Below, in pieces: positions 6,346 through 61,601 of a DNA stretch of 64,000 bases. The notes below the pieces were generated by a model. The model did no database searches and was not told where the DNA came from. It saw only the letters and a list, made by a program, of their open reading frames with translations. This DNA is from Halarcobacter bivalviorum (GTDB lineage: Bacteria; Campylobacterota; Campylobacteria; Campylobacterales; Arcobacteraceae). Position 1 is the stretch's first letter; each line of letters begins with the position of its first letter. The DNA is taken from assembly GCF_003346815.1 (NCBI RefSeq), contig NZ_CP031217.1, forward strand, positions 2,170,001 through 2,234,000, in the 5' to 3' direction. Position numbers and translations under genes: made by a program.

Positions 6346-8116
6346 TGAAAAAGTATCTTCATTTAAAGAGTCTTATAAAACAACTCTAAATATTGCAGGC
6401 AAAAGTTCCAATTTAGTAAAAAGAAGTTTTTTATATTTTATTATTGCTTATATCTTTCAAGGTATAGCTTTTGCTCTTTTTTTCCCTCTTTTAAATAATA
6501 TTTTCCAAATAGAATTTAATTTAAAAGAGACTCTTTTTTGGCTTGGAGCAATTTGTATATTTAGTCTATGCTCTTTCTTTTTTCGATGGCTAGGTTCTAA
6601 TTTTCAATATTCAAAAGAGATTGTTCAAATAACCCATAACCTAAGAGTTAAACTTGGAGAAAAGATAAAAACTATGCCTCTTCAAAGCCTATATAGATAT
6701 AGAACAGGAGAATTAAACTCTATCTTAGCACAAAATGTTGATGAGTCAATTTTACATATGGGAATAGTTTCTGGAATGTTTTTTGAAGTAGCTATTGTGC
6801 CTCTTGTAATAATCATTGCAACATTTTTTATAGACCCAAGCATGGCAATAGCTCTTCTTATTGCTTTTCCTTTTGCAATTCCTATTTATAATTGGAGTAG
6901 AAAGAAAACAAAATGGGATAAAACAGAAGGAATAAAAGCCCACGCAAACCTTGAAGCAGATACTATTGAATATATTCAAGGTTTACCTATTTTAAGAGCA
7001 GTAAATCAAGTAGGTGAAAATGCACAGAACCTTCAAAAATCAATTGCTAATTTAAGAGAAGTACAAAAAAAAGGTCTTTTTGCTTCAACCTTTCCAATGA
7101 TTATAATGAATACTCTTATTGAGTTTCTATTTCTATTTATTCTTGTTTTAGGAAGTATATATATTACTAAAGGAGAGTTTAGTATAGGAGCTTTAATTGC
7201 CTTACTTATAATTTTAGGAAGATTATCTGAACCATTAGCAAACTTCTTAGCAGTAGCAAGTGTTTTAGATATTATGGAGGCTTCTTTTAAAAATATTCAA
7301 AAGCTTTTGGAAGTAAAAGAGTTTTTTGTAAAAGAGCCAAAACAAAGACCAAAAGAGTTTAATATTAATTTTGAAAATGTAGATTTTGCATATGAAGGAA
7401 ATACAAAAAATAGTTTAGAAAACTTAAGCCTTGAAATCAAAGACAAATCACTTACTGCAATAGTTGGTCCATCTGGAAGTGGTAAAACAACAATTACAAA
7501 ACTAATTATGAGATATGATGATCCACAAAAAGGAGTGGTTAAAATTGGTGGTGTAGATATTAGAAAAATGAAACAAACTACTTTAATGAGTTATATCTCT
7601 GTAGTATTTCAAGATGTCTATTTATTCGATGATACTATTTTAAATAATATTCGTATGGGAAAACCAAATGCAAGTGATGAAGAAGTATTAGTAGCTTCTA
7701 AAGCTGCATTTTGTCATGAGTTTGTTTCAAGACTTCCCCATGGATATGAAACAAAGGTTGGAGAAATTGGTGGAAGTTTAAGTGGAGGAGAACGTCAACG
7801 TATTTCTATAGTAAGAGCAATTTTAAAAGATGCACCTATTGTAATACTTGATGAACCTACCTCAGCACTAGACACCGAAAGTGAAGTAGCTGTTCAAAAT
7901 GCTTTAGACAAACTTATTAAAAATAAAACTGTAATTGTAATAGCCCATAGACTTTCTACTATTTCCCATGCAGATAATATTTTAGTAGTAGAAGATGGAC
8001 AAATAAAAGAGTATGGTACACACCAAGAACTAATTGAAAAAAAAGAGAAATATTATTCAATGTTTCAAGCTCAACAAAGAGTAAAAGAGTGGGATGTAAA
8101 GAGTAATATAGAATGA
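6338..8116 (+). CDS. ABC transporter, fused permease-ATPase (YbtQ-like)
   Basis: Second half of the presumed heterodimeric siderophore ABC importer, 592 residues. It has six predicted membrane helices in residues 25-310 and an ATPase domain with Walker A GPSGSGKTT (377-385), signature LSGGERQR, Walker B IVILDE followed by PTSALD, and the H-loop IAHRLST. AAGGA stands 7 bases before the ATG at 6338, inside the end of the upstream gene. The last bases overlap the next MFS gene by an ATGA junction. Fe release in the cytoplasm by known YbtPQ systems needs no periplasmic binding protein, and none is encoded here. Confidence 0.87.
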   Translation: MNSEKVSSFKESYKTTLNIAGKSSNLVKRSFLYFIIAYIFQGIAFALFFPLLNNIFQIEFNLKETLFWLGAICIFSLCSFFFRWLGSNFQYSKEIVQITHNLRVKLGEKIKTMPLQSLYRYRTGELNSILAQNVDESILHMGIVSGMFFEVAIVPLVIIIATFFIDPSMAIALLIAFPFAIPIYNWSRKKTKWDKTEGIKAHANLEADTIEYIQGLPILRAVNQVGENAQNLQKSIANLREVQKKGLFASTFPMIIMNTLIEFLFLFILVLGSIYITKGEFSIGALIALLIILGRLSEPLANFLAVASVLDIMEASFKNIQKLLEVKEFFVKEPKQRPKEFNINFENVDFAYEGNTKNSLENLSLEIKDKSLTAIVGPSGSGKTTITKLIMRYDDPQKGVVKIGGVDIRKMKQTTLMSYISVVFQDVYLFDDTILNNIRMGKPNASDEEVLVASKAAFCHEFVSRLPHGYETKVGEIGGSLSGGERQRISIVRAILKDAPIVILDEPTSALDTESEVAVQNALDKLIKNKTVIVIAHRLSTISHADNILVVEDGQIKEYGTHQELIEKKEKYYSMFQAQQRVKEWDVKSNIE

Positions 8117-59430: not shown

Positions 59431-60708
59431 GTGGAAACATTTAACATTAAAAAACTGTCTAAACCTTTTAACATAGAGATTGACTCAATTGCAAGTGATA
59501 AATCTATATCACATAGATGTGCAATGTTTTCACTATTTTCAAATGAAACTTCATATATTAAAAATTACCTTACAGCAGAAGATACATTAAATACTTTAAG
59601 CATAGTAGAACAATTAGGTGCTAAAATCACACGTAATGGTTCTACTGTAGAGATTACACCTACAGATAAGTTAACTGAACCTAAAGATATTCTAGATTGT
59701 GGTAACTCAGGAACGGCAATGAGACTATTTTGTGGTTTACTTGCTTCAATTGATGGAGCATTTACTCTAACTGGGGATAAATATCTTAGAGAAAGACCTA
59801 TGAAAAGAGTAGCTGACCCTTTAAGAAGTATTGGTGCAAATATTGATGGAAGAGAAAAAGGTAATAAAGCTCCACTATTTATTCGTGGAGTAAAAGAATT
59901 AAAACCTTTTACTTATCACTCTCCTGTTGATTCAGCACAAGTTAAATCTGCAATGATTCTTGCAGCACTTAGAGCCAATGGTATTTCAAAATATAAAGAA
60001 AATGAGCTTACACGTGACCATACAGAAAGAATGTTAACAGGTATGGGAGCTAAATTAGAAATAGATAATGAAGGGTTTATAAATATTCATCCTTTAGAAG
60101 GACATTTAAAGCCATTAAATATTACAGTTCCAACAGACCCTAGTTCTGGATTCTTTTTTGCAGTTGCAGCTGCAATTACTAAAGATTCAAGAGTTGTAAT
60201 AAAAAATGTATCTTTAAATCCAACTAGAATTGAAGCCTATCAAGTTCTTAAAAGAATGGGTGCAGAAGTTAACTTTATTGAAAAAGAGAATATTTATGAA
60301 CCTATTGGAGATATTGAAGTTAAATACAAAGAACTAAATGGAGTTGTTGTTGAAGATAATATCTCTTGGTTAATTGATGAACTTCCAGCTCTTTCAATTG
60401 CTATGTCAGTCGCAAATGGAAAGTCATTAGTAAAAAATGCAAAAGAGTTAAGAGTTAAAGAATCAGATAGAATAGAAGCTGTTGTTTCAAATCTAAAAAA
60501 ATGTGGTGTCACTTATACTGAATTTGAAGATGGATATGAAATAATAGGAGGAACTTTAAATAAAGCCTCAATTGATTCTCATGGAGACCATAGGATTGCA
60601 ATGAGTTTTGCAATTGCAGGTACTTTATGTGATATGGAAATAAATGATGTTGAATGTATTTTAACATCATTTCCTAACTTCAAAGAAATCCTTGATTCTT
60701 TATATTAA
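59431..60708 (+). CDS. aroA: EPSP synthase
   Basis: Shikimate-pathway enzyme joining shikimate-3-phosphate and PEP, 425 residues. Motifs are [33 protein letters not shown] and RVKESDRI with DHRIAMSFA. The LLASIDG segment after GTAMRLFCG lacks the Gly of class I GNAGT..., so it resembles class II. The start is GTG, 7 bases after AAGGA. ispH follows after a regulatory-looking hairpin region. Confidence 0.96.
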
Positions 60709-60727
60709 AAAAGAAATTAATTGATTA

Positions 60728-60758
60728 GTCCCCTTTTTTGATGGGACATCAAAAAAGG
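60728..60758 (+). promoter_or_regulatory. Alternative hairpins sequestering the ispH ribosome binding site
   Basis: GTCCC (60728-60732) can pair with GGGAC (60743-60747). Alternatively CCTTTTTTGATG (60732-60743) pairs with CATCAAAAAAGG (60747-60758), a perfect 12-bp stem whose 3' arm contains the AAAGG of the ispH Shine-Dalgarno sequence. The two foldings exclude each other, so this looks like a translational switch. Confidence 0.6.
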
Positions 60759-60767
60759 ATACATTTT

Positions 60768-61601
60768 ATGAAAGTAAAACTAGCATCAAGCTATGGTTTT
60801 TGTTTTGGAGTTAAAAGAGCAATTGAAATTGCAGAAAAATATGAAAATTCTGCAACAATGGGACCACTAATACACAATCAAAATGAAATTGATAGACTAA
60901 AAAATGATTATAATGTAGGGTTATATAATAATCTTACAGATGTAAAACCTAATGATACAGTTATTATTAGGACACATGGTATTCCAAAAAATGATTTAAA
61001 AGACTTACGTAAAAAAGATGCAAAAGTTATAAATGCAACTTGCCCTTTTGTTACAACTCCTCAACAAATTGTAAAAAAAATGTCTGCAGAAAAATACTCA
61101 ATTTTAATATTTGGAGATGAAGATCATCCTGAAGTTAAAGGTGTAAAATCTTATGGTGAAGACCAAGATGATGTACATGTAGTTTTAGATATAGATGAAC
61201 TTAAAAATATCAACTTTAAATATGACAAAATTGCTACTGTTGCACAAACAACAAAAAAGAAAGAGACTTACTTAGAAATTGTAAATAATCTTATTTTAAA
61301 GAATAAAGAAGTAAGAGTTTTTAATACAATTTGTGATGCTACTTTTGAAAATCAAGATGCAGCAAGAGAACTCTCAAAAGAAGTAGATGTAATGGTTGTA
61401 ATTGGAGGTAAAAACTCTTCAAATACAAAACAATTACACTCCATTTGTGTAGAAAACTGTATAGATTCTTATTTAATTGAAAATGCCAAAGAACTTGATT
61501 CTACTTGGTTTAAAAATAAACACTTATGCGGTATAACTGCTGGTGCAAGTACGCCTGATTGGATTATTCAACAAGTAGTCAATGAAATAGAAAAATATTA
61601 A
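60768..61601 (+). CDS. ispH: 4-hydroxy-3-methylbut-2-enyl diphosphate reductase
   Basis: Last enzyme of the MEP isoprenoid pathway, 277 residues. Cluster cysteines lie in SYGFCFGVKRAIE, INATCPFVTTPQ and FNTICDAT; HGIP and the C-terminal TAGASTPDWI are also typical. A TTG-started frame runs from 60738, but ATG 60768, 8 bases after AAGGA, gives the family N terminus. It lies between aroA and rpsA, the order I recall from Helicobacter. Confidence 0.97.
   Translation: MKVKLASSYGFCFGVKRAIEIAEKYENSATMGPLIHNQNEIDRLKNDYNVGLYNNLTDVKPNDTVIIRTHGIPKNDLKDLRKKDAKVINATCPFVTTPQQIVKKMSAEKYSILIFGDEDHPEVKGVKSYGEDQDDVHVVLDIDELKNINFKYDKIATVAQTTKKKETYLEIVNNLILKNKEVRVFNTICDATFENQDAARELSKEVDVMVVIGGKNSSNTKQLHSICVENCIDSYLIENAKELDSTWFKNKHLCGITAGASTPDWIIQQVVNEIEKY

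Follow-up and report, generated by a model that had tools for sequence, protein, structure and literature searches.

The junction of aroA and ispH in Halarcobacter bivalviorum raises the question of whether two overlapping hairpins in front of ispH control the last step of isoprenoid synthesis, as a translational switch or an RNA thermometer, which was the proposal of a sequence-only reading of this DNA. The window, the whole stretch of 64,000 nt that was analysed, carries the genes pheS, pheT, aroA, ispH and rpsA around this site. On the plus strand, aroA (59431..60708; TIGR01356, 409 bits at a cut-off of 287) is followed by a short spacer (60709..60727), the hairpin region and ispH (60768..61601; TIGR00216, 318.6 bits at a cut-off of 188). 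The hairpin region consists, on the same strand, of the 5′ arm of stem A, GUCCC (60728..60732), the 5′ arm of stem B, CCTTTTTTGATG (60732..60743), the 3′ arm of stem A (A′), GGGAC (60743..60747), and the 3′ arm of stem B (B′), CATCAAAAAAGG (60747..60758). Stem B, here referred to as the lock, has 12 perfect pairs closed by the loop GGA (60744-60746), which is the core of arm A′; stem A is the alternative, open hairpin. C60732, G60743 and C60747 are common to both stems, and these three shared bases bear out the earlier statement that GTCCC/GGGAC and the perfect 12-bp stem are mutually exclusive. Burial of the ispH Shine-Dalgarno (SD) sequence by the 12-bp stem was likewise confirmed: AAGG lies inside the 60747-60758 arm, and the complete SD, AAGGA (60755..60759), is located 8 nt upstream of the ATG at 60768.

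The stem at 60732-60758, which is the stem B hairpin, was also recovered by a terminator-like scan. RNA folding of these 27 nt gave −12.2 kcal/mol, a value equalled by none of 200 shuffles, with z values of −2.36 in a 60-nt context and −2.81 in an 82-nt context. When the 64-kb window was shuffled 20 times by dinucleotides, no perfect stem of at least 12 bp with a loop of 3-7 nt arose; the real window contains four, of which only the ispH stem sits on AGG followed by a start codon. The feature is regarded as more than chance decisively because the A-B-A′-B′ pattern recurs in all 16 genomes of the genus. A search for this pattern returned 108 matches in these 16 genomes (16/16), and the reversed-pattern control returned 1. 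Thirty of the 108 matches were made into loci, and 29 of these 30 lie 5′ of a start codon.

Most copies of the pattern form the end of a unit of about 111 nt, which comprises the hairpin P1 (its loop reading CUCG in 94 of 169 copies), the motif CUUUAGRRUUUG, the stem P2 (GCUWCUUU pairing with AAAGWAG), the variable hairpin P2b, an A-rich linker and the 3′ module P3. Conserved among copies is the arrangement GU(U)CCC-B-GGGA(A)C-B′-AAGG, and B and B′ diverge widely between loci. The loop of stem B is GGA in 104 of 143 elements, and the SD reads AAGGA in 133 of 137. A covariance model of the full element, R1, matched 25 of the 30 examined loci (no match at L039, L040, L047, L053 and L059). In the genome of the window it gave 14 matches at E ≤0.1, 12 of them at ≤2.4e-9. 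At E 1e-5, copies were found in 77 of 104 genomes of the Arcobacteraceae, representing 15 of 20 genera, with a maximum of 25 in one genome. Of 397 genomes sampled across the class, 63 matched, namely 35 of this family and 28 of other families, the matches in the latter being weaker than those in Arcobacteraceae.

For the counts given below, 100 further copies (94 family-wide and 6 from the class sample) were taken among the matches listed, and they therefore lean to strong matches. Removal of identical 3′ ends left 169 of 182 elements, 151 obtained with R1 and 18 with the P3 pattern. Energies, SD exposure, loop-A counts and mismatches were determined for the 137 elements fitting GU(U)CC...GG(G)A(A)C...AAGG, degenerate copies being left out. 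Gene names other than aroA, ispH, rpsA, pheS and pheT are tentative assignments based on the starts of the proteins. When the window segment 60300-61000 and nine element loci were searched with Rfam release 15 (4227 models), the element exceeded no gathering score; the sole match above threshold was 5_ureB_sRNA at positions 1059-1348 of locus L037, outside the element at 1501-1611 of that locus.

Some individual copies show peculiarities. In the leaders of cbpA-like genes (L175 in G004 and L172 in G009) an extra hairpin is nested in P2b, and this hairpin itself includes a lock-like unit ending in TTTAAGG. The ddl leader L183 (G004) has a degenerate P3 with stem A seemingly rebuilt as GCCU/AGGC, as judged by eye. 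On the minus strand of the window, positions 6487-6531 form a weak P3-like hairpin (model R2, 20.0 bits, E 0.0028) that resembles a long AU hairpin.

At ispH, R2 matched positions 60728-60758 (20.5 bits, E 0.002) and R1 gave a weak match (29.3 bits, E 3.6e-4); the P1-P2 part is missing from the short spacer behind the aroA stop. The ispH copy of the window is the truncated 3′ end, P3, of the larger dispersed element, a point that escaped the sequence-only reading. Full-length elements are present at ispH of the relatives L005, L006 and L011. Among the ispH leaders of the 16 same-genus genomes, a clear copy was found in L003 (the window's own), L004, L005, L006, L008 and L011; L009 and L016 hold degenerate copies by eye, and the remaining genomes are empty or ambiguous. 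Control specific to isoprenoid synthesis was thus not supported, since only 6 of 16 ispH genes of the genus carry a clear copy and the same element lies 5′ of about 100 unrelated gene families.

In 152 of the 169 unique copies the modelled element terminates in AAGG, and in 151 of the 169 the end is located 6-10 nt 5′ of a start codon. Some start codon was located for 163 of the 169 copies, with the element in sense orientation, and none for 6. Among 81 copies with long flanks, 47 start no more than 20 nt 3′ of the stop of a same-strand ORF and 68 within 400 nt; because these stops sit so close 5′ of the element, most copies are considered intercistronic. The downstream proteins (184 items) fell into 101 clusters, corresponding to the roughly 100 gene families, and no common pathway connects the target genes.

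Compensatory change in relatives had been named beforehand as the test by which the proposed switch could be refuted, and it was found: both stems covary. In a full alignment of 12 elements, 96.4% of pair cells were paired vs 79.2% in shuffles, the covariation was 0.491 vs 0.143 ± 0.020 (0/500 shuffles as high) and 15 of 30 pairs had changed on both sides; slid controls were 45-63% paired. For the P3 lock alone, in 16 copies, 92.0% were paired vs 77.4% (0/500 shuffles). Within loci the lock score was 8.35, and it fell to 5.69 ± 0.14 when each arm was combined with one from another locus (highest value in 200 swaps 6.07; 147 of 151 copies segmentable by stem A). Stem A, counted in 142 of 143 elements, was UCC/GGGA in 103 and UUCC/GGAA in 21, with 5 + 5 crossed combinations and 8 others. 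Orthologous copies were compared in 134 non-independent pairs, 62 being left out (41 with a different loop, 21 with a different arm length). Two-sided pair changes remained paired in both copies in 143 cases and were broken in one or both in 28; of 146 one-sided changes, 113 were broken in one or both and 33 kept pairing. Part of the two-sided changes may represent independent insertions instead of compensation in place. Because of these pairing and covariation counts, the family is taken to preserve both exclusive stems, with a clearer signal for the lock than for stem A and with breaks and decayed copies existing alongside. An H-type pseudoknot of A and B was set aside, as it would have zero linker bases and the loop-adjacent pairs covary.

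Energies were predicted for the isolated hairpins of the 137 elements, with medians of −6.9 kcal/mol for A and −6.2 kcal/mol for B. In the 106 copies with arms of equal length, 59 of 70 mismatches of stem B fall at pairs 4-7 from the SD end, and repair of the mismatches in silico shifted the median of stem B from −6.2 to −9.9. A and B are thus near-equal in predicted energy because the lock has mid-stem mismatches, and the lock looks, in these models, weakened down to the level of stem A. The ispH copy is an outlier in this prediction, with no mismatch and −12.2 for B vs −6.6 for A. Because P1-P2 was lost or never present and the lock is free of mismatches, the ispH copy is predicted to be static, keeping ispH translation low instead of switching.

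The history of the element was followed at orthologous sites. For twelve genes compared across five close relatives, filled, partial and empty sites were observed; three genes, glnB, trx and the L070 gene, have the element in the genome of the window only (filled in one of five close relatives each). The full element at glnB spans 2395369-2395481 of this genome. P3 without the rest was found at ispH (G000, G008), sucC (G008, G004) and gidA (G008), P3 remnants at tal of G009, together with a piece of P2, and in decaying form at ddl of G010, and P1-P2 without P3 at trx of L073. The empty orthologous sites show that gain and loss affect the element as one unit. These sites retain SD and spacer without B′, and B is therefore not a copy of the target. 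Head-to-tail copies with a period of 110-112 nt occur among the matches listed for the family and the class sample; in the ispH leader of G009 (L006, 1201-1500) three such copies follow each other at about 110 nt, the first cut at its 5′ side. The inner tandem copies of this leader are without the AAGG end. No target site duplication was detected in 79 elements, where the longest common flank was 5.53 vs 5.46 ± 0.12 between loci. For L095, a tandem copy, a direct repeat had hinted at such a duplication; this did not generalise to the 79 elements.

In other Campylobacterales (G114, G119, G358), relatives of P1-P2 occur as dispersed repeats and are devoid of P3. They were also found directly 5′ of 16S rRNA (L223, L228 and L229 in G221 and G302) and in antisense orientation beside the 3′ end of what, from its sequence, we take to be 23S rRNA (L221, L227, L233 and L238 in G299, where the four copies are identical, and L220 in G302). 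In a survey of one or two 16S copies per genome in 25 genomes, the 16S leaders of G221 and G302 carried the relative and those of the other 23 did not; an origin of P1-P2 from rRNA leaders (boxA-like) was rejected as general on these 23/25 genomes. The occurrence of these relatives as repeats and beside rRNA outside the family points to a mobile ancestry. G-U pairs and A-C mismatches were counted in alignments A4 and A5, which have a few loci in common. P1 and P2b together gave 53 G-U vs 5 A-C, as expected under selection on the sense RNA, an excess that is possibly slightly favoured by the model alignment. P3 gave 19 vs 25, and stem A, in the count over 142 elements, 5 vs 5. P3 therefore lends no independent support to action as RNA, and this lack of an RNA-strand bias leaves room for a DNA hairpin recognised during mobility.

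In the most likely reading, to which we give about an even chance, the dispersed element of the Arcobacteraceae is a mobile or formerly mobile, mostly intercistronic leader with a bistable translational switch. Its architecture, recurrence, placement, the covariation of both stems, the predicted energies and the gain and loss of the unit are established by the analysis. In this family the element occupies, in sense orientation, the gap from the stop of one gene to the SD of the following one, and it would act as RNA. Fold A (GUCCC-GGGAC) would arise first during transcription and leave AAGG free, so that translation would be on; fold B, the 12-bp AU-rich hairpin with the GGA triloop, would capture AAGG and shut initiation off. 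As A and B are near isoenergetic in typical copies, P1-P2 or a trans-acting factor could conceivably tip the balance and would then provide the trigger. In a riboswitch, P1-P2, which covaries and stands with the conserved CUUUAGRRUUUG 5′ of P3, would be the candidate aptamer; the ispH copy is without this part, and the targets are unrelated. More tentatively, the element may be a mobile RNA cassette that equips genes inside operons with a bistable, tuned switch at the SD. A single post-transcriptional signal, read by way of P1-P2 and the loop GGA, would then be shared by many unrelated genes of a genome, and the ispH copy would be a derivative frozen in the off state.

A purely mobile DNA repeat, MITE- or REP-like, whose end hairpins P1 and P3 are recognised as single-stranded DNA by a transposase, is conceivable and in our view rather unlikely. 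Mid-stem mismatches would then be recognition features, and the position at the SD would reflect surviving insertions. The gain and loss of the unit at orthologous sites, the head-to-tail copies at their 110-112 nt period, the P3-less P1-P2 relatives, dispersed as repeats in other Campylobacterales and also placed beside rRNA genes in both orientations, the missing GU bias of P3 and the clustering of mismatches in mid-stem are all consistent with such a repeat. Random insertion in two orientations, however, would not yield the 163 of 169 unique Arcobacteraceae copies that are in sense and directly 5′ of a start codon, and the absence of target duplication, the GU bias in P1 and P2b and the two-sided changes that stay paired at orthologous loci argue in the same direction. 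Complementarity of B and B′ as a by-product of insertion, by an inverted copy of the target made 5′ of the SD, would account for arms particular to each locus; it was rejected at five empty sites without B′ (glnB, the L068 gene, the L070 gene, a hemE-like gene and sucC) and is highly improbable.

Repression by CsrA on the model of C. jejuni flaA, with the protein contacting both the AAGGA SD and the GGA that closes stem B, is improbable as the function of the leader. According to PMC4894983, CsrA of C. jejuni recognises AAGGA/ANGGA, a motif that frequently sits in a hairpin loop and occurs between operon genes as well, and the high frequencies of GGA in the loop and of AAGGA as SD agree with it. 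The A two bases 5′ of the loop GGA, however, is present in only 20 of 137 elements and absent in 117, and stem B base-pairs the GG of the SD. From the C. jejuni work CsrA may be named as a candidate binder, in a reading that the loop sequence weakens. Heat could also melt stem B and free the SD, and the AU-rich hairpin that sequesters it resembles the czcD thermometer of C. jejuni as described in PMC7592916; the median predicted SD exposure of the 137 elements is 0.15 at 5°C and climbs to 0.39 at 42°C. Against this stand the shallowness of the trend, the many unrelated kinds of targets and the ispH copy, whose SD has a predicted unpaired fraction of 0.0 at 5°C that reaches 0.014 at 55°C. With an exposure of at most 1.4% the lock is predicted shut from 5 to 55°C, simple melting is therefore unlikely at ispH, and the earlier suggestion of a simple RNA thermometer there found no support; for the family as a whole a thermometer is very improbable.

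If the bistable switch is real, the Arcobacteraceae hold a dispersed post-transcriptional regulon and, with it, a natural experiment on the path from mobile element to translation regulator, whose material is as many as 25 copies in a genome, orthologous sites that have or lack the element, and copies with and without P1-P2. If the element is a mobile repeat only, it provides a clean case of a repeat that settles at ribosome binding sites and leaves them intact. In both cases, the hairpin at ispH calls for study as a family member and not as an isoprenoid-specific control.

A literature search found no description of the element. The supplement of PMC6429828, a study in which Arcobacter sp. 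L was analysed and whose accessible part leaves most of its novel regions and motifs unnamed, lay outside the scope of this search, and an earlier sighting is possible. Apparently, the element represents an unrecorded family that would act like known SD switches and resembles interspersed repeats, its belonging to either being unproven. In the expression platforms of translational riboswitches, alternative pairing sets the access to the SD. This principle would be common to both; the element differs in its approximately 100 unrelated target families and in matching no Rfam riboswitch. With the C. jejuni flaA leader bound by CsrA, as presented in PMC4894983, it shares a loop GGA and an AAGGA SD, but here ANGGA is absent from most loops, the GG of the SD is paired and a second, exclusive stem exists. 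The C. jejuni czcD thermometer is likewise an RBS-sequestering hairpin in Campylobacterales; in PMC7592916 it is described as one stem loop at one gene, whereas the element described here has two exclusive covarying stems, many genes and a dispersed distribution, and no melting is predicted at ispH. Finally, the BOX, RUP and SPRITE repeats of pneumococcus (PMC3049150) are comparable in being short and structured, in occurring in many copies and in allowing transcription together with genes; the Arcobacteraceae repeat differs from them in that its 3′ end is the SD of the gene that follows and that it carries covarying alternative stems and keeps a fixed orientation to that gene.
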